Of a DNA stretch of 60,312 nucleotides, positions 24,253 through 60,312 are shown piece by piece; positions within the stretch are counted from its first letter, which is position 1, and each line of letters starts with the position of its first letter. This stretch comes from a virus, in the IMG/VR virus record IMGVR_UViG_3300043446_003285, positions 1 to 60,312 of that record. One strand, written 5' to 3'. A program made the translations under genes and the position numbers. Under the pieces are notes generated by a model. The model ran no database searches, was not told where the DNA came from, and saw nothing but the letters and a program-made list of their open reading frames with translations.

Positions 24253-24991
24253 AAGGCTGGTAAACCAACGGAAAAATTCCTGAAATAAATCCCGGAGCCA
24301 TTAGGCTTAAAAATGTTGCTATTTTATCATCTTTGGAATAAAAATATCCACCTGTAAACCAAAGTTTTCTAATAAACAAATTATGATACACAGATTTTGT
24401 AAGTTTAACATCGTCACCCAAACTATCAAAATACTGTGCAAGACTATTTCTCAAATCTGTTGATAAATCATATCCTTCTTTAAGATAAATTTTATATAGA
24501 TAGTCTGTTGGTTTTTTAACAATAATTTGATTTGATTGTAAAATTTGTCTAGAATCATCATTTTTTGGTCTATAAAATTCCATTAAACAATTTTTATTGT
24601 GTTTAATTAAATCAAACATTAACTGCTCATCATTGCCATAAACCTGAATCCAGGGTTCTTCAATTCTGTGTTTAATTTGATCTTTATGGTCTACAAACGC
24701 TTGTTGCCAATATTTTAATTGATCAATATCTACTTCTGCATACTGACTTTTACGCTCAATGGTGCTTCTTGAGATCCAACTTGAATGAAAATTAAATTTT
24801 TGATAATTTGTTTTTCTTATGTCTACCAACGATTCGATACTTAGCTTGCTATTTTTATCCTGTCTAATTACGCCAGCCAATGGAATACGCAGCACAGCCT
24901 TGTACAAGTACTGGCCGTAAAACAGTTTCACTGTATCCCTAACCTTACAGGTTGGCGTTAACTTCGTCCAAGACAACATATCCATTTTCAT
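24248..24991 (-). CDS. Phage hypothetical protein, unknown function
   Basis: A 247-residue soluble protein rich in Lys, Tyr and Trp. I recognise no motif. It overlaps the ClpA-like gene by 47 bases if the first ATG (24991) is used. A shorter start at ATG 24985 (residue 3, MDMLSW) is equally possible and does not remove the overlap. The overlap suggests co-expression with the unfoldase gene. Confidence 0.6.
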   Translation of the reverse strand: MKMDMLSWTKLTPTCKVRDTVKLFYGQYLYKAVLRIPLAGVIRQDKNSKLSIESLVDIRKTNYQKFNFHSSWISRSTIERKSQYAEVDIDQLKYWQQAFVDHKDQIKHRIEEPWIQVYGNDEQLMFDLIKHNKNCLMEFYRPKNDDSRQILQSNQIIVKKPTDYLYKIYLKEGYDLSTDLRNSLAQYFDSLGDDVKLTKSVYHNLFIRKLWFTGGYFYSKDDKIATFLSLMAPGFISGIFPLVYQPS

Positions 24992-27239
24992 CTATAGCTT
25001 TGTTAGTAGGATAAAGAATATACTCATTTTCCCTAACATTAAAATCAAACTCACCGTCAACATAATCAATGTCTACTGTGCAGTTTTGTAGATTTTCAAA
25101 AAGTATCTTTTTACTTAAAGGAGTTTTTATCAATTCATTGATCTTACGGGACAAGGGTCGTGCGCCCATTTTATTGTCGTAGCCCTTGTCAATAATTTCA
25201 TCAATGGCCGCTGGCCTTACTCTAATACTGATGTGTTTGTCACTGAGTAAGTCGTTAATTTCTTTAATAAACTTGTCCACAATTCGTTCAATATGTTGTT
25301 TGCTGAGTTTATTGAACTTGACAACACCATCTAAACGATTACGGAATTCAGGTTTAAAGAAGTCTTTAACAGCCTTGTCATCTTCGCCTTCTCTGTCCAG
25401 GCTAGTAAAGCCAATACTGTTGCGCTCATTGTCTTGAGCACCAAGGTTACTAGTTAAGATAACAATACTGTTTCTACAGTCGGCTTTCTTTCCATTACTG
25501 CTGGTAACAATGCCTTCGTCCATTAAACTTAGCAGAAGATTACTGACATCTGGATGTGCTTTTTCAATTTCATCAAATAGGATAATACAATTAGGATTCT
25601 TTTCAACTTCGCTGATAAGCAGACCGCCTCCAAGATTACCATCATCATAGCCTACATACCCGGGGGGAGCTCCAATCAGTTTTGCAACCGAATGTTTCTC
25701 TTGGTATTCACTCATATCATATCTAAGTAGTTTCATCCCGAGATTTTCAGCCAATAATTTTGCCAGTTCTGTTTTACCTGTGCCTGTTGGACCCAGGAAC
25801 AGGAACGAACCTACAGGTTTGTTGAGTGCTTTCAAACCTGCTCGGCTTACATAAATTTTATCTAATACATTTTCAACAGCAGTATCTTGACCAAACAGTC
25901 TCGATTTGATATTAGGTTCGAGATTTTCTAAGTTCTTAGTAGTTTCATTATCTAATTGATGAACAGGAATCTTAGTAAACTTGCTGAGACTATCAATAAT
26001 GTGACTCTTGCGTAGTACAAAGTTTGCGGAAGCAATTTTTAATCTTGCCATACTAGCATCAATCAAATCAATTGCTTTATCAGGCAGTCTTTTATCTGTT
26101 TGGTATCTAACACTTAGATCTACTGCGGCTTCAATGGCTTCGTCACTGACAGTGCCATTATGGAATTCTTCAAAATATTCCTTAAGTCCATGAAGAATAT
26201 CTTTGGCAATAGTGGGTGTAGGTTCTTCCACAGTCATTCTATAAAAGCGACGCATCAGTGCGCGATCTTTTTCAAAGCTTTGGCTGTATTCTTCCCAAGT
26301 AGTGCTGGCAATTACTTTAATATTACCTTTTGTCAGTGCAGGTTTAATCATGTTACTGAAATCAAGACTGCTGTTACTGCCTGAACCAGCACCACGCATA
26401 GTATGCGCTTCATCAATAAACAAAATACACTTGCCTTTTAAGGCCAGAGCTTTCATTACATCTTTAAACTTTTCCTCAAATTCGCCGCGATACTTACTAC
26501 CAGCCAACAAACTGCCGATATCTAAATTATAAACAACATGCTCTAACAAATATTCTGGCACTTCCTGTTCAACAATCTTTCTAGCTAGGCCTTCGGCAAT
26601 AGCAGTTTTACCTACGCCGGGATCGCCTACCATTAGAATGTTGCTTTTATTTCTCTTGGCCAAAACTTCTACAATTTCTTGAATTTCTGTTTCACGGCCA
26701 ATTACAGGATCAATTTCATTCTTTTCTGCTTTGACATTTAAGTTAGTGCAGTATTCATTCAAGATAGCATCAACTTGATTACCGGATTTCTTTTTACTGG
26801 TTTTGCTGAATGTTTTATTCCAATAAGTTACAACTTTGTCTTTTTCAAATCCGTATTTTTTAAAGAAATACGAAGCATGACTGGCTTCTTCGTCCATTAC
26901 GCTTAAAAACAAATCAATTACTTGTAGATTGTTTCTACCGCTAAACAGAACCTGTGTAAATGCGCGATTAAACACACGCTCCAGTGTTCTTGTTTTTCTA
27001 GGAGTACCAGTTTTATTTTTGTCTAATAGAACCTGTGTTTGGTCAGTTAAAAATTTGTCTAAGTCAGCAGCCAGTGCATCAACATCGGCGCCATAGTCTT
27101 TACAAAATTGTCCAAATGCTTCGTCTTGAACCATGGCCAATGCCAAATGCTCCAGTGTGCTGTACTGGTGATTTTTAGCCACGGCAATTGCTGTTGCGGC
27201 TGCGATGATTTTGTCAATTTCTGGGGATGATTCAAGCAT
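24945..27239 (-). CDS. clpA: ClpA-type AAA+ unfoldase with ClpP-docking IGF loop
   Basis: A 764-residue two-ring AAA+ protein of ClpA size. The N-domain (about 1-140) begins SSPEIDKIIAAATAIA. Ring 1 has Walker A GDPGVGKT (205-212) and Walker B LFIDEAH (273-279). Ring 2 has Walker A GPTGTGKT (483-490) and Walker B ILFDEIE (553-559). There is no long middle coiled coil, so it is not ClpB. The tripeptide I-G-F at 609-611 matches the loop that docks ClpA/ClpX onto ClpP. No ClpP gene is seen here, so it probably works with host ClpP. Confidence 0.92.
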   Translation of the reverse strand: MLESSPEIDKIIAAATAIAVAKNHQYSTLEHLALAMVQDEAFGQFCKDYGADVDALAADLDKFLTDQTQVLLDKNKTGTPRKTRTLERVFNRAFTQVLFSGRNNLQVIDLFLSVMDEEASHASYFFKKYGFEKDKVVTYWNKTFSKTSKKKSGNQVDAILNEYCTNLNVKAEKNEIDPVIGRETEIQEIVEVLAKRNKSNILMVGDPGVGKTAIAEGLARKIVEQEVPEYLLEHVVYNLDIGSLLAGSKYRGEFEEKFKDVMKALALKGKCILFIDEAHTMRGAGSGSNSSLDFSNMIKPALTKGNIKVIASTTWEEYSQSFEKDRALMRRFYRMTVEEPTPTIAKDILHGLKEYFEEFHNGTVSDEAIEAAVDLSVRYQTDKRLPDKAIDLIDASMARLKIASANFVLRKSHIIDSLSKFTKIPVHQLDNETTKNLENLEPNIKSRLFGQDTAVENVLDKIYVSRAGLKALNKPVGSFLFLGPTGTGKTELAKLLAENLGMKLLRYDMSEYQEKHSVAKLIGAPPGYVGYDDGNLGGGLLISEVEKNPNCIILFDEIEKAHPDVSNLLLSLMDEGIVTSSNGKKADCRNSIVILTSNLGAQDNERNSIGFTSLDREGEDDKAVKDFFKPEFRNRLDGVVKFNKLSKQHIERIVDKFIKEINDLLSDKHISIRVRPAAIDEIIDKGYDNKMGARPLSRKINELIKTPLSKKILFENLQNCTVDIDYVDGEFDFNVRENEYILYPTNKAIDENGYVVLDEVNANL

Positions 27240-27247
27240 AAAAATAT

Positions 27248-28075
27248 TTATTGGTTATATTTGAGTTTTTGAATTTGTTCAAGAGCAGAGTCGCTGAGAT
27301 CTGTCGGAATTTGAACTTTGATGCGTACAAACAAGTGGCCTTTGATATCTTTCTGAAATGCCGGTAAACCTTCTCCAGCAATTTTTAGTTTGGTATCGGG
27401 TTGGCAACCTGGATGTGTCCTTATCAAAAATTGTTTTCCATCTAAGCCTACAACTGTTTGCTCACTGCCTAGTATAGCATCAAAGCAGCTGATAGTCAAC
27501 GTTGTTAACAAATCTAATCCACTGACTTCGAAGGCACTGTTGTTAATTACATGAACATTGATATACAGGTCACCGCGAGTTAGATTGGTAAACATGTTAT
27601 CGCCCAAACCTGGATACTTGATTGTGGTGCCCGAAGTTATACCTGCCGGGATAGTTATGTCCACAGTGTGAACTTGATCGTTGCTGGTTTTGATTCTAAG
27701 TGTTTTGGACTGTGGATTAAGTGTTTCGTGAAGCTGGCACTGTATATCTGCTCTAATGTCTTTGTTTCGTCGTTCCTGTTGTCTAAAGTGCGGGTGATTA
27801 GCAAAAGGATTACCAAAACCAAATCTGCTAAAAATATCATCTAAATTAATATCACCGTGATTAAAATTAAAGTGAATATTATTTGGTTGTAGATTATCGT
27901 ACTGTGCTCGTTTTTCGGGATCACTTAGTACTCGATAAGCTTCTTCAATTTCCTGAAATTTGGCCGTGTCTCCGCCTTTGTCAGGATGATGCTGACTGGC
28001 TAACTTTCTGTATGCTCTTTTTATTTCTTCGGGTGTGGCTGTTTTGGTTATGCCTAAAGTGTCGTAATGACTCAT
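27248..28075 (-). CDS. DnaJ/CbpA-type co-chaperone
   Basis: A 275-residue Hsp40. The J domain (1-65) carries HHPDKGG at about 28-34. A short G/F region follows ([13 protein letters not shown]). Two C-terminal substrate domains include [23 protein letters not shown]. The zinc finger of DnaJ is missing, so it is CbpA-like. It would stimulate host DnaK. It lies 8 bases upstream of the ClpA-like gene, forming a chaperone/unfoldase pair. Confidence 0.92.
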
Positions 28076-43903: not shown

Positions 43904-44464
43904 TTATTTTCCTGCGTAAATTCGAATATTGACACGATCCCAATTAATCAATTGCCAAATTCTCTCTAAGTAGCGTTTTTTGTCAGCACCGTAGTCCAGA
44001 GCCCAGGCATGCTCCCACCAATCAATTAACAATGCAATGTCGTTTTTAATTTGGTGATTTTTAATAGTTTTAATTTCGCCTGTGCGACTTAGATAAATCC
44101 AACCCGAGCCTTGTATTTTCATAGCTTCAGTTTGAAACTTTTCTTTGAAGTCTTTAAAACTACCGTATTTTTTATTAATTAGAGTTAAACTAGCACCGCG
44201 TGGTTGATTGCTGGGGCGGGGATGTTGAAATTGACTAAACAGGATATTGTGTAAAAAAGCGCCTGCTTCGTTAAAAGTGGGATCGCCTTCGCCTTTGTTA
44301 AAACGGTCAACATAGCCCTGTGCCAGTTTACCATAATGGTAGTCAATGGTCTTTTTGCTCATCACAGGCTCAAGAGCACTACGCCCATAGGGCAGTTTAT
44401 TAAGCTCTAACTGTTTACCTTTGGATTCTACTAGATCTATAAAGTGTTTAATATCTTGCGTCAT
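43904..44464 (-). CDS. Fe/Mn superoxide dismutase
   Basis: A 186-residue dismutase. The metal ligands are present: H43 (YHYGK), H72 (FLHN), D148 and H152 (DWWEHAW); the gateway Tyr is Y51. The usual H-H pair after the first ligand (GKHHQ) is L-A here. Gly at the fourth position before H72 is more typical of Mn enzymes, but the metal cannot be decided. It removes superoxide in the cytoplasm. It sits between infA and erpA. Confidence 0.9.
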
Positions 44465-48347: not shown

Positions 48348-49094
48348 TTACGAATTTTGTGCTATCAGCTGTCTTGCCAAATTATCACGCTGTTGTTTGG
48401 TAGGTTCGCCCAAAATAACAATAGCTTGCATTTGACCAGCTTTTTCAACCATTAAAATTATGCACCTGCCTGCGTGGCTAGTATAACCAGTTTTGGTAAG
48501 CACAATGTTATCGAATTCGGACAGCAGTGCCTTACTGGTACTAGTATACACAGGCCGTTCTTTATATCCATATTTAGTTTTTACGACGGTGTAGATTTCA
48601 GGTTGGTTAGCCACAGTTCTTATAAAGTTATAACGATAAGCATTAACCAATAGTTCTACCAATTCGTTGGCAGTGCTGAGATTAAACACGCCCAAGCCAC
48701 TGGGATCAATGAATTTTGTATGTTCTAAATTTAGTTGAGCTGCTTTGACATTCATGGCCGAAATAAAAGCAGTTCTTCCACCAGGATAATTTTTAGCTAA
48801 AACTTCGGCGGCTGAGTTGTCACTGCGTACCAATAAACTGGTCAACAGTACACTGACCTGTTCTGTTTGTTTTTTATTAGTTTTTAATTTTTGATCTAAG
48901 TTATAGTGATCCAGGGCCACCATGGCAGTCATAAGTTTAGTAATACTGGCAATGGGCCTTACTACATTGGCATTGAACTGTTCTACCACAGTGTCTGTAG
49001 TGACATTATAAACTAGCACACTAGGCGACTGCGCGGCCTGTGCCTTAGAAAAAATAAACAAAGATAAAATAGTTACAAGAATTTTTCGCATCAA
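48348..49094 (-). CDS. D-alanyl-D-alanine carboxypeptidase/endopeptidase (S11)
   Basis: A 248-residue penicillin-binding protein. Signal peptide ends ...SKAQA (residues 1-20). Active-site motifs are S50-I-T-K53, S91-D-N93 and K201-T-G203. The C-terminal domain and membrane helix of PBP5 are missing, so it resembles PBP7-type endopeptidases. It would trim peptidoglycan crosslinks in the periplasm. A phage gene of this kind may remodel the wall during infection, block superinfection or aid lysis. Confidence 0.9.
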   Translation of the reverse strand: MMRKILVTILSLFIFSKAQAAQSPSVLVYNVTTDTVVEQFNANVVRPIASITKLMTAMVALDHYNLDQKLKTNKKQTEQVSVLLTSLLVRSDNSAAEVLAKNYPGGRTAFISAMNVKAAQLNLEHTKFIDPSGLGVFNLSTANELVELLVNAYRYNFIRTVANQPEIYTVVKTKYGYKERPVYTSTSKALLSEFDNIVLTKTGYTSHAGRCIILMVEKAGQMQAIVILGEPTKQQRDNLARQLIAQNS

Positions 49095-53606: not shown

Positions 53607-53766
53607 TTCTTTTAACCCCAAATTCTTGTAACATAAGGGCCGCAACACGCCCATACCATTGTCTAGCTGATTCTTCGTCGTCAAATTCGGGACTTAGTTC
53701 AATGTCATGGTCTGTGGTTTCAACCCATACATATACTTCATCAAAGTCATCGTAGATCAGTGTCAT
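53599..53766 (-). CDS. Small acidic phage protein (55 aa)
   Basis: A frame from ATG 53766 encodes 55 residues (MTLIYDDFDEVYVWVE...), acidic with a helical end (WYGRVAALMLQEF). It is coupled to both neighbours by short overlaps. Function unknown. Confidence 0.6.
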   Translation of the reverse strand: MTLIYDDFDEVYVWVETTDHDIELSPEFDDEESARQWYGRVAALMLQEFGVKRND

Positions 53767-53975
53767 TATTTTAATCCAAAATGTTGTTTGATAATTCGTG
53801 CGGCACTGTCAGCATCTAAGGGAAAAGGTTCTTGACGCCACTTTAGTAATTCATTCGCACAATCTTTCACAATCAACTCGGCGAACTTTTCTGGATTCAA
53901 CTCTGGACAATCTACATATCCATTGCTGTAGTAATCCATAGCCTGATTCATAAGTTCTCGAATTCGTTCGTTCAT
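53766..53975 (-). CDS. Small conserved phage protein (69 aa)
   Basis: Start at ATG 53975 (MNERIRELMNQAMDYY). The pattern PEKFAELIVKDCANELL is common in small early genes of T4-like phages. Helical; function unknown. Confidence 0.65.
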   Translation of the reverse strand: MNERIRELMNQAMDYYSNGYVDCPELNPEKFAELIVKDCANELLKWRQEPFPLDADSAARIIKQHFGLK

Positions 53976-53976
53976 A

Positions 53977-54147
53977 TTACATCTGCTTTGCGTCAACAAT
54001 AATCATAATGCCAACCAGCAACCATAGCACACCAACAATAGGATCACCTGCCACAATGTCTGACACGGCTGACACCAAACAAAGTGCTCCGACCACAAAG
54101 CCAATTGTTTTACGGTTACGATCAAACCAAGTAATAAATTTATCCAT
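53977..54147 (-). CDS. Small two-helix membrane protein
   Basis: Start at ATG 54147 (MDKFITWFDRNRKTIG); 56 residues with two hydrophobic helices. It overlaps the upstream gene by 8 bases. Role unknown. Confidence 0.55.
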   Translation of the reverse strand: MDKFITWFDRNRKTIGFVVGALCLVSAVSDIVAGDPIVGVLWLLVGIMIIVDAKQM

Positions 54148-58842: not shown

Positions 58843-59727
58843 TCAAATTTTATCCATGTTTTCATTGATTGAGCTGCCTGTTGGCAAGTCTGCTGATCCG
58901 GTAATTGAATTTCTATTCTTGCTGGAACGTCTCGAGGATCGTTTAAGTGTACCGCTATTAATATCAGTATCCACATCGTCGTGCTCCTTGGTCCAAGTTA
59001 CTATATGCCATGATCCGTCGTACTGCTCCACCAATGCAGTACAACTTTCTACCCAGTCACCGTCATTCATATAAGTGACTTCGTTTATTGTTTTAATTTC
59101 TGCGTGATGTATGTGTCCACAAATAACTCCATCAAATCCGCGTTTTTTACAATAGTTTGCCAGGTTTAATTCAAATTGAAAAATAAAGTCCACTGCTCGT
59201 TTGACTTTTACTTTTAGAAATTTTGATAGACTCCAGTATCCAAAACCCAACCTATGACGAATCCAGTTAAAACGATTATTAAGGGCCAAAACCATGTCAT
59301 ACGCATTGTCTCCTAAAAAACTTAACCAAGGGGCTAATCTTGTGATGCCATCAAACATATCGCCATGAACAACAAGATAATGTTTTTTGTCTAAGCCTAT
59401 ATGTTCAATTTGATTGCAGACTTCTATATTACCGAAACCTATACCGTAGGGCATAAGGGGTCTTAGAAATTCATCGTGATTGCCAGCTATATAGATAACT
59501 CTTGTGCCGCGTTTGGCATGACCTAGTATTCGTCTTATTACATTGCTATGCGATTGTTTCCAACGCCATTTGTTGCGTTGTATTTTCCAACCGTCAATTA
59601 TATCGCCTACTAGGTAAAGTGTTTCGCAGGTATTATGTTTGAGAAAATTGCTTAAATGATCGGCCTTGCAGTCTTTGGTGCCAAGATGTACATCGCTTAT
59701 AAAAATACTGCGGTAAGTTTTTTGCAT
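58843..59727 (-). CDS. PlcP-like phospholipase C (UDP-diacylglucosamine diphosphatase family)
   Basis: Start at ATG 59727 (MQKTYRSIFISDVHLG), giving 294 residues. Metal-site motifs: D12/H14 (SDVHLG), D42 (VGDIIDGW), N83/H84 (AGNHDEF), H121 (VVHGDMFD), H205/H207 (CGHIHH), then GDWVESCTALVE. This is the LpxH-like family that includes PlcP, which splits phospholipids to diacylglycerol in phosphate-starved bacteria. It is followed by the GT4 gene after 21 bases. A Ser/Arg/Asn-rich tail of about 40 residues is an addition. A true LpxH role is possible but the neighbours argue for PlcP. Confidence 0.85.
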   Translation of the reverse strand: MQKTYRSIFISDVHLGTKDCKADHLSNFLKHNTCETLYLVGDIIDGWKIQRNKWRWKQSHSNVIRRILGHAKRGTRVIYIAGNHDEFLRPLMPYGIGFGNIEVCNQIEHIGLDKKHYLVVHGDMFDGITRLAPWLSFLGDNAYDMVLALNNRFNWIRHRLGFGYWSLSKFLKVKVKRAVDFIFQFELNLANYCKKRGFDGVICGHIHHAEIKTINEVTYMNDGDWVESCTALVEQYDGSWHIVTWTKEHDDVDTDINSGTLKRSSRRSSKNRNSITGSADLPTGSSINENMDKI

Positions 59728-59759
59728 TGTAACAATATTTAAGAACAATATTGTTACAA
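59727..59759 (-). promoter_or_regulatory. 13-bp inverted repeat at the plcP start codon
   Basis: TTGTAACAATATT and its exact complement AATATTGTTACAA are separated by 7 bases. The repeat ends at the A of the plcP ATG. It contains a late-type CTTAAATATTG (59733-59743). No ribosome site is visible, so the structure may control translation or bind a regulator. Confidence 0.6.
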
Positions 59760-59941: not shown

Positions 59942-59995
59942 AGATCAATACCTTTATATATGTTTAACGCCTGCGGTTCAAAAAAGTTTACAAAC

Positions 59996-60017
59996 AAAAA
60001 GGCCTTGCGGCCTTTTT
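59996..60017 (-). terminator. Terminator after tmRNA
   Basis: On the minus strand AAAAAGGCC-GCAA-GGCCTTTTT: a 9-bp stem with GCAA loop and U-run. It ends the tmRNA transcript. Confidence 0.85.
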
Positions 60018-60312
60018 GGTTATTTTGGGTAAAAAGGCATAACTGCCCCTGGTATGGCTATCAGGCCATTACAGCTTCACGAGCTGCAGAAGCAAGCTTA
60101 ACGCCTTTTCCGCTGAACTTGAAGCTACCTTTTGTAGATGCTGTTGCATTTACTGAATGTATGCGATTTACGGTCGTCATCTACCGTGCTGTCCACTCTG
60201 TTACTCTTTGCCCTGTCGAAACCATTTCATCCCCAGCAACAACACACTATTTCTAATATGCTCTTGGTGGAGATGGGGGCTTCGAAGCCCCGTCCAAGAC
60301 TCATTTCTCGTT
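60018..60312 (-). ncRNA. ssrA: tmRNA, circularly permuted (two-piece), cut by window edge
   Basis: The order on the minus strand is acceptor piece first: T arm with GGGGCTTCGAAGCCCC, acceptor strand CATCTCC, discriminator A, and CCA ending at 60265. Then a 30-base intervening segment (60235-60264), then the coding piece starting GGGGATG at 60234 (followed by AAATGGTTTCGACAGGG). The acceptor halves pair 7 bp with one G-U. The tag frame is 60147 to 60061: resume codon GCA, 28 codons (ATASTKG...AREAVMA), then TGA TAG. No T arm or CCA follows the tag; a terminator does. The 5' end of the acceptor piece is off the window. The T loop seems one base short. Tag end AVMA resembles ClpXP degrons. Confidence 0.88.

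Follow-up and report, generated by a model that had tools for sequence, protein, structure and literature searches.

Does the phage represented by a linear IMG/VR virus record of 60,312 bases (the window, which here means the whole stretch of DNA analysed) carry its own circularly permuted tmRNA gene, and from which source did it obtain it? tmRNA rescues stuck ribosomes and is usually viewed as a host housekeeping RNA. The candidate gene is located at the right end of the window, on the minus strand. ARAGORN reports a tmRNA* (permuted) at 59970..60356, running past the window edge, and a single line naming a tmRNA was obtained from 500 dinucleotide shuffles of the region. The Rfam model RF04321 (tmRNA_permuted) matches the window with 80.8 bits (E 6.5e-14, cut-off 47), clipped on its 5' side by the contig end only. 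A standard, non-permuted tmRNA was rejected, as no RF00023 match was listed at the window end. The sequence-only reading, which had proposed a phage-encoded circularly permuted tmRNA gene of the two-piece type and suggested an Infernal search with permuted models, is thus borne out by both ARAGORN and RF04321. The beta_tmRNA model RF01850 gives 70.7 bits on the clipped window copy, below its cut-off of 84.

The visible part of the acceptor piece (60265..60312, minus strand; RF04321) contains the T arm and the 3' acceptor strand CATCTCC-ACCA. Its 3' end reads ...GGGGCTTCGAAGCCCC-CATCTCC-ACCA, with the CCA ending at 60265. An intervening segment of exactly 30 nt, read from the sequence (60235..60264, minus strand), leads from the CCA to the coding piece (60018..60234, minus strand; ARAGORN, RF04321 and alignment). 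The coding piece starts with GGGGATGAAATGGTTTCGACAG at 60234 and shows, in this order, the 5' acceptor strand GGGGATG, GGTTTCGAC, the P2 3' strand ACAGCA, a pseudoknot region, the tag frame and a 3' pseudoknot region. The acceptor stem GGGGATG/CATCTCC has seven pairs, among them the alanine determinant G3-U70. The tag reading frame (60058..60147, minus strand; ARAGORN) encodes the 28 residues ATASTKGSFKFSGKGVKLASAAREAVMA, running from GCA to GCC and followed by the tandem stops TGA TAG. An intrinsic-terminator-like hairpin, AAAAAGGCC-GCAA-GGCCTTTTT, can be read from the sequence at about 59996..60017 (minus strand). This anatomy is exactly the one described beforehand: acceptor piece before coding piece, CATCTCC-A-CCA, and a 30-base segment between them. 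With a tRNA-like domain whose acceptor stem is of alanine type, the permuted order, a 28-codon tag frame and a terminator-like hairpin, the window gene is an authentic ssrA gene of the permuted kind. In L140, L155 and L033 (Phosso) the two pieces are separated by very long intervening segments (up to about 410 nt), and the Phosso tmRNA was found by Rfam and missed by ARAGORN.

The T arm GGGGC-TTCGAA-GCCCC (60276..60291, minus strand) is a perfect palindrome, with a T-loop of 6 nt and a C-G closing pair, whereas the usual loop has 7 nt and is closed by G-C. Among 33 T-arm classes surveyed, the palindromic 6-nt-loop arm is present only in the window, its overlapping contig L046 and the contig L127. 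A permuted tmRNA with a T-loop lacking the TTCGA motif (CCGGCTAGCATATGCCGG) is located in L108 (4428-4687).

The part of the gene cut off by the window edge is provided by contig IMGVR_UViG_3300043395_003672 (L046; 4,874 bp), which shows 100% identity to the window over 4,806 bp and reaches 68 nt past window position 60312, completing the tmRNA gene. RF04321 matches L046 end to end (model positions 1-213, 80.4 bits), and beta_tmRNA RF01850 is not listed for the complete gene in L046 at the gathering threshold. The 5' end of the acceptor piece, with the P2 strand UUGCUGU, is located in L046 about 22-28 nt outside the window edge, and the coding piece supplies its pairing partner, ACAGCA. It had been considered that the acceptor sequence beyond the edge might break the fold; in L046 it completes it. 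Of the 1347 cells that an alignment of 55 distinct permuted tmRNAs from phages gives for acceptor stem, T stem and P2, 1308 (97%) contain a standard pair; this percentage leans upward, as the alignment also served to predict the consensus structure. The same helices show many two-sided changes, which are stronger evidence of pairing than the percentage of paired cells. In the window, one of these helix pairs fails and there is a gap at a second.

The window probably represents part of a jumbo myophage genome. Its T4-type DNA polymerase has its best isolate matches in the jumbo phages Phosso, Atu_ph07 and Rak2-like phages, and a clamp loader and a DNA ligase are also encoded. A metallophosphoesterase gene (58843..59748, minus strand; profile match) is a marker of the tmRNA-carrying phage group. 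The window also contains a phage iron/manganese superoxide dismutase gene (43904-44464). Permuted tmRNAs had been thought rare in phages, a view that does not hold: 402 phages were reported to carry 133 unique tmRNA structures, of which 53, from isolate phages, were two-piece and nearly all aquatic (PMC9004378), and the phage permuted tmRNA as such is already known (PMC9004378); 79 phage tmRNAs are included in PMC11915505. In the viral collection, a loose DNA pattern retrieved 23 contigs of permuted type (22 confirmed by ARAGORN), permuted tmRNAs were found in 33 of the 42 viral records selected, and the tag pattern gave roughly 100 contigs with a permuted tmRNA; these fractions are not prevalence estimates, because the records were picked by pattern or marker-protein match, and gene absences are weak, because most records are fragments. 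The permuted tmRNA is of beta type in most group members tested, and most pass the RF01850 cut-off. A tRNA with anticodon CUA, a possible amber suppressor, is located near the permuted tmRNA in L055-L058 (1169-1243) and in L127 (5325-5399).

The origin of the gene differs between its two halves. Over positions 1-197, L046 shares 99.0% identity with contig G041 (87.5 kb), and the odd 6-nt T-loop is part of this front block; outside it, matches at DNA level between G041 and the window are limited to stretches of 24-34 bp. Positions 153-588 of L046 are 88.6% identical to L388/L389, two contigs with the same tag family as L046. L388 and the window phage have a PstS and DNA ligase gene neighbourhood in common, and L388 therefore stands for the recipient lineage. 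The putative recombination breakpoint, GGACAGCACGG (60184..60195, minus strand), separates an upstream side with 99% identity to the HNH-type G041 from an L388-like downstream side, and the similarity switch falls directly after the P2 helix. On this comparison, the tmRNA gene is very likely a phage-phage recombinant, formed by a G041-like tRNA-like half and an L388-like tag half. Because the gene is permuted, the tRNA-like half is one contiguous block; the acceptor piece and the intervening segment, together with ~50 nt from the start of the coding piece, would have arrived as a unit from the HNH-bearing lineage, and the tag half and the downstream DNA would belong to the window phage's own lineage. 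Among the short DNA matches to G041, a small window ORF (53766-53999) was located that belongs to a set of small repeated ORFs (MNKRIQEL...FAELIVRECL...HFGVEE), also found in L127 (2616-3730, several copies) and L388 (6444-6689); PHROG gave no match for the window ORF or for one L388 copy.

The sequence-only reading had seen in the permuted organisation a hint of host origin. The beta-type organisation does resemble the ssrA of Betaproteobacteria (RF01850 gives the 70.7 bits mentioned here and exceeds the cut-off in relatives), but the nearest sequences are phage contigs, with 99% and 89% identity, no closer bacterial sequence appeared in the searches made, and no tmRNA carrying the related inner-motif tag came out of a scan of 84,980 genomes. 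Direct capture of the gene from the ssrA of the present host is thus highly improbable, and the hint gives way to a probable phage-phage hybrid whose closest sequences found are other phage tmRNAs.

The hybrid might instead be an error of metagenome assembly that joined the front half to the tag half. The only sequences across the junction, the window and L046, are both metagenome assemblies and may represent the same population or data, because they are identical over 4,806 bp. However, donor-type and recipient-type sequences have only seven exact bases in common at the join (GGACAGC), or 14 on the assumption of an L170-like donor, which is shorter than the usual assembly k-mers, and the junction of HNH gene and tmRNA is repeated in contigs from several other metagenomes. 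An assembly error is accordingly very unlikely, and the recombinant gene is retained as the preferred reading.

The gene directly upstream of the tmRNA in G041 encodes a HNH homing endonuclease and ends at the tmRNA. In relatives, this gene matches the PHROG 655 homing endonuclease (51 bits) and the Pfam HNH family PF01844 (24.7 bits, cut-off 21.4). It is present in nine contigs of the viral collection, G041 included, and in all seven HNH loci whose downstream side can be read it directly abuts a permuted tmRNA, either beta or alpha-like in type. Between L169 and L170-L172, the similar tract opens at the start codon of the HNH gene and closes where the tmRNA ends; the immediate flanks show little or no similarity. 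Across L169-L177, the HNH family ends at permuted tmRNAs of several types, in differing contexts. For the window phage only part of the gene is visible, as the start of L046 corresponds to the last 10 codons of the HNH gene; L388 shows no HNH gene upstream of its tmRNA. The exchange most likely took place by homing in which the adjoining half of the tmRNA was co-converted. This is also the simplest reading of these loci, with a presumed enzyme activity and a presumed cleavage site. Taken as a whole, the explanation that a jumbo myophage carries a mosaic permuted tmRNA, with a front half derived from a HNH-linked lineage probably via homing, is held with high confidence.

The window tag is identical to that of L388/L389 in 27 of 28 residues, L108 and L390 carry the same tag family, and its end is AVMA, not ALAA. 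This small family (window/L046, L388/L389, L108/L390) is distinct from the family with the inner motif FDFSAMSFTGNTV. In the related jumbo phage group, gathered via the metallophosphoesterase and then via the tag pattern, 98 contigs encode tags that follow the type ANADTFDFSAMSFTGNTVRGAANESRFALAA and are 26-31 residues long. The inner motif FDFSAMSFTGN[TS]V, common to the large phage tag family and under strong purifying selection, was observed in L132-L156 and L178-L292. Among 48-49 distinct tag sequences, S12, F13, G15, N16 and V18 are invariant; because the search pattern contained S-F-[T/S]-G-[N/K], the lack of variation at S, F and G is to some extent a product of the search. For these distinct tags, pN/pS amounts to 0.10 over codons 10-16 and to 0.17 over codons 6-18, and variation is four to six times higher at third codon positions than at the first and second. 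The synonymous excess and the flanking conservation (D7, F8, A10 and V18) are not products of the search pattern. Codon variation thus points to purifying selection on the inner motif FDFSAMSFTGNTV of the long phage tags. In the scan of 84,980 prokaryote genomes, with loci fetched by the same pattern, no tmRNA with the inner-motif tag was found; all 95 genome matches were other than tmRNAs, and a host origin of this tag was rejected. A derivation of the inner motif as a copy of a window protein was also rejected, since the window scan matched the tag itself only.

The odd T-loop and the tag raise the question of activity. Function could be weakened by the 6-nt T-loop, closed by C-G, and by a tag that ends in AVMA in place of ALAA; together with the lower score of the window (80.8 bits, against 100-163 bits in most relatives), these features fit a decaying or non-functional passenger, or a decoy for SmpB, AlaRS or ribosomes that acts without productive tagging. 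A precedent is the DS6A phage tmRNA, which has no coding sequence and inhibits the endogenous tmRNA in E. coli, as cited in PMC11915505. Against this, the tag frame is open, closed by tandem stops and 27/28 identical in L388, the same T arm is intact in L127, whose tag looks normal (ANDESFRIAA), and the helices are almost fully paired in the alignment. A passenger or decoy is considered unlikely, and a functional phage tmRNA is preferred.

Cutting of a permuted tmRNA transcript into two pieces by host enzymes is expected from known biology. By analogy with known tmRNAs, the precursor would be cleaved by host tRNA-processing enzymes into two pieces that stay base-paired; host AlaRS would charge the tmRNA and host SmpB would bring it to stalled ribosomes. 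The tmRNA would then add the tag ATASTKGSFKFSGKGVKLASAAREAVMA, ribosomes would be recycled during infection, and the tagged products would go to host Clp proteases, or to a phage ClpAP, for degradation. SmpB (PF01668) is absent from the window and from 16 records tested.

The window encodes a ClpA unfoldase (24945..27239, minus strand; PHROG 4871, 827 bits) with a ClpP-docking IGF loop (ERNSIGFTS). It matches E. coli ClpA 1ksf with 607 bits, the loop SIGF being aligned to SIGLIH. An adjoining gene encodes a DnaJ co-chaperone (27248..28075, minus strand), and the same pair is present in Phosso, Atu_ph07 and PA5oct. No ClpP was found in the window, which is a 60-kb fragment, and the phrog_5304 'peptidase' (48348-49094) was rejected as ClpP, being a D-Ala-D-Ala carboxypeptidase S11. 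Most of the long relatives have genes for both ClpA and ClpP. ClpA and a permuted tmRNA are found together in nine long records: G012, G029, G037, G038, G042, G043, G044, G046 and Phosso. G042 and G043, with 99.98% identity across the 6.7 kb compared, probably represent one phage, and the G038 tmRNA, with 47.4 bits, is barely over the cut-off. ClpP is present in eight of these nine jumbo records, and the catalytic triad is intact in the single ClpP inspected. In Atu_ph07, PA5oct and G022, ClpA is present and no tmRNA was detected, and ClpA is missing from other permuted-tmRNA phages; a strict pairing rule was rejected, and the link may reflect shared ancestry only, because counter-examples exist both ways. 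A ClpA match in the Acinetobacter 'phage' MD-2021a was set aside, since its clpS-clpA and metabolic neighbourhood looks like a bacterial chromosome. The co-occurrence of ClpA/ClpP and tmRNA is a suggestive genomic association inside one phage lineage, from which we infer that the phage may tag proteins for its own ClpAP. More tentatively, and with considerable doubt, jumbo phages may run a trans-translation of their own, in which permuted tmRNAs are mobile and spread by endonucleases, the tag half is exchangeable separately from the tRNA-like half, and the long phage-specific tags (FDFSAMSFTGNTV, or KGSFKFSGKGVKLAS in the window's relatives) direct products to phage ClpAP or another phage partner, not simply to host ClpXP.

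The new elements are the apparently recombinant gene, the adjacency of HNH gene and tmRNA in 7/7 loci, the long inner-motif tags and the co-occurrence of ClpA/ClpP without SmpB. The tmRNA here seems to behave as mobile phage cargo, with a homing endonuclease at the gene, and donor, recipient and recombinant can be compared base by base. Permutation would make the tRNA-like domain swappable as one block with the tag left in place. The conserved long tags raise the question of what a phage gains from a tag signal of its own and whether its own ClpAP reads that signal.

Among known systems, the window fits RF04321 and RF01850 in gene order, acceptor stem, GGTTTCGAC and P2, and departs from them by its 6-nt T-loop, its long AVMA-ending tag and its sub-cut-off beta_tmRNA score. 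Methylophilales phage Melnitz and the pelagimyophages (PMC9004378) likewise are large aquatic myophages with a permuted two-piece tmRNA that presumably depends on host SmpB. However, the Melnitz ssrA is of alphaproteobacterial type with a glutamine riboswitch link, whereas that of the window is mostly beta-like, HNH-linked and apparently mosaic, with a 28-residue tag. Sinorhizobium phage Phosso and Stenotrophomonas phage DLP6 are isolated phages with a permuted tmRNA, like the window. Phosso also shows ClpA, DnaJ and ClpP, and its tmRNA is of alpha type with an intervening segment of ~410 nt, in contrast to the 30 nt of the window. DLP6 shows no ClpP match, and neither phage came up in the HNH family search. 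SegB biases the inheritance of the T4 tRNA region. The closest likeness to the HNH-linked tmRNA lies in this linkage of a homing endonuclease to phage translation RNA genes, T4 SegB being linked to the tRNA gene region (PMC13096335, PMC2988022), whereas here a HNH-type enzyme gene ends at the tmRNA gene itself and the exchanged tract would stop inside the gene, past the P2 helix.
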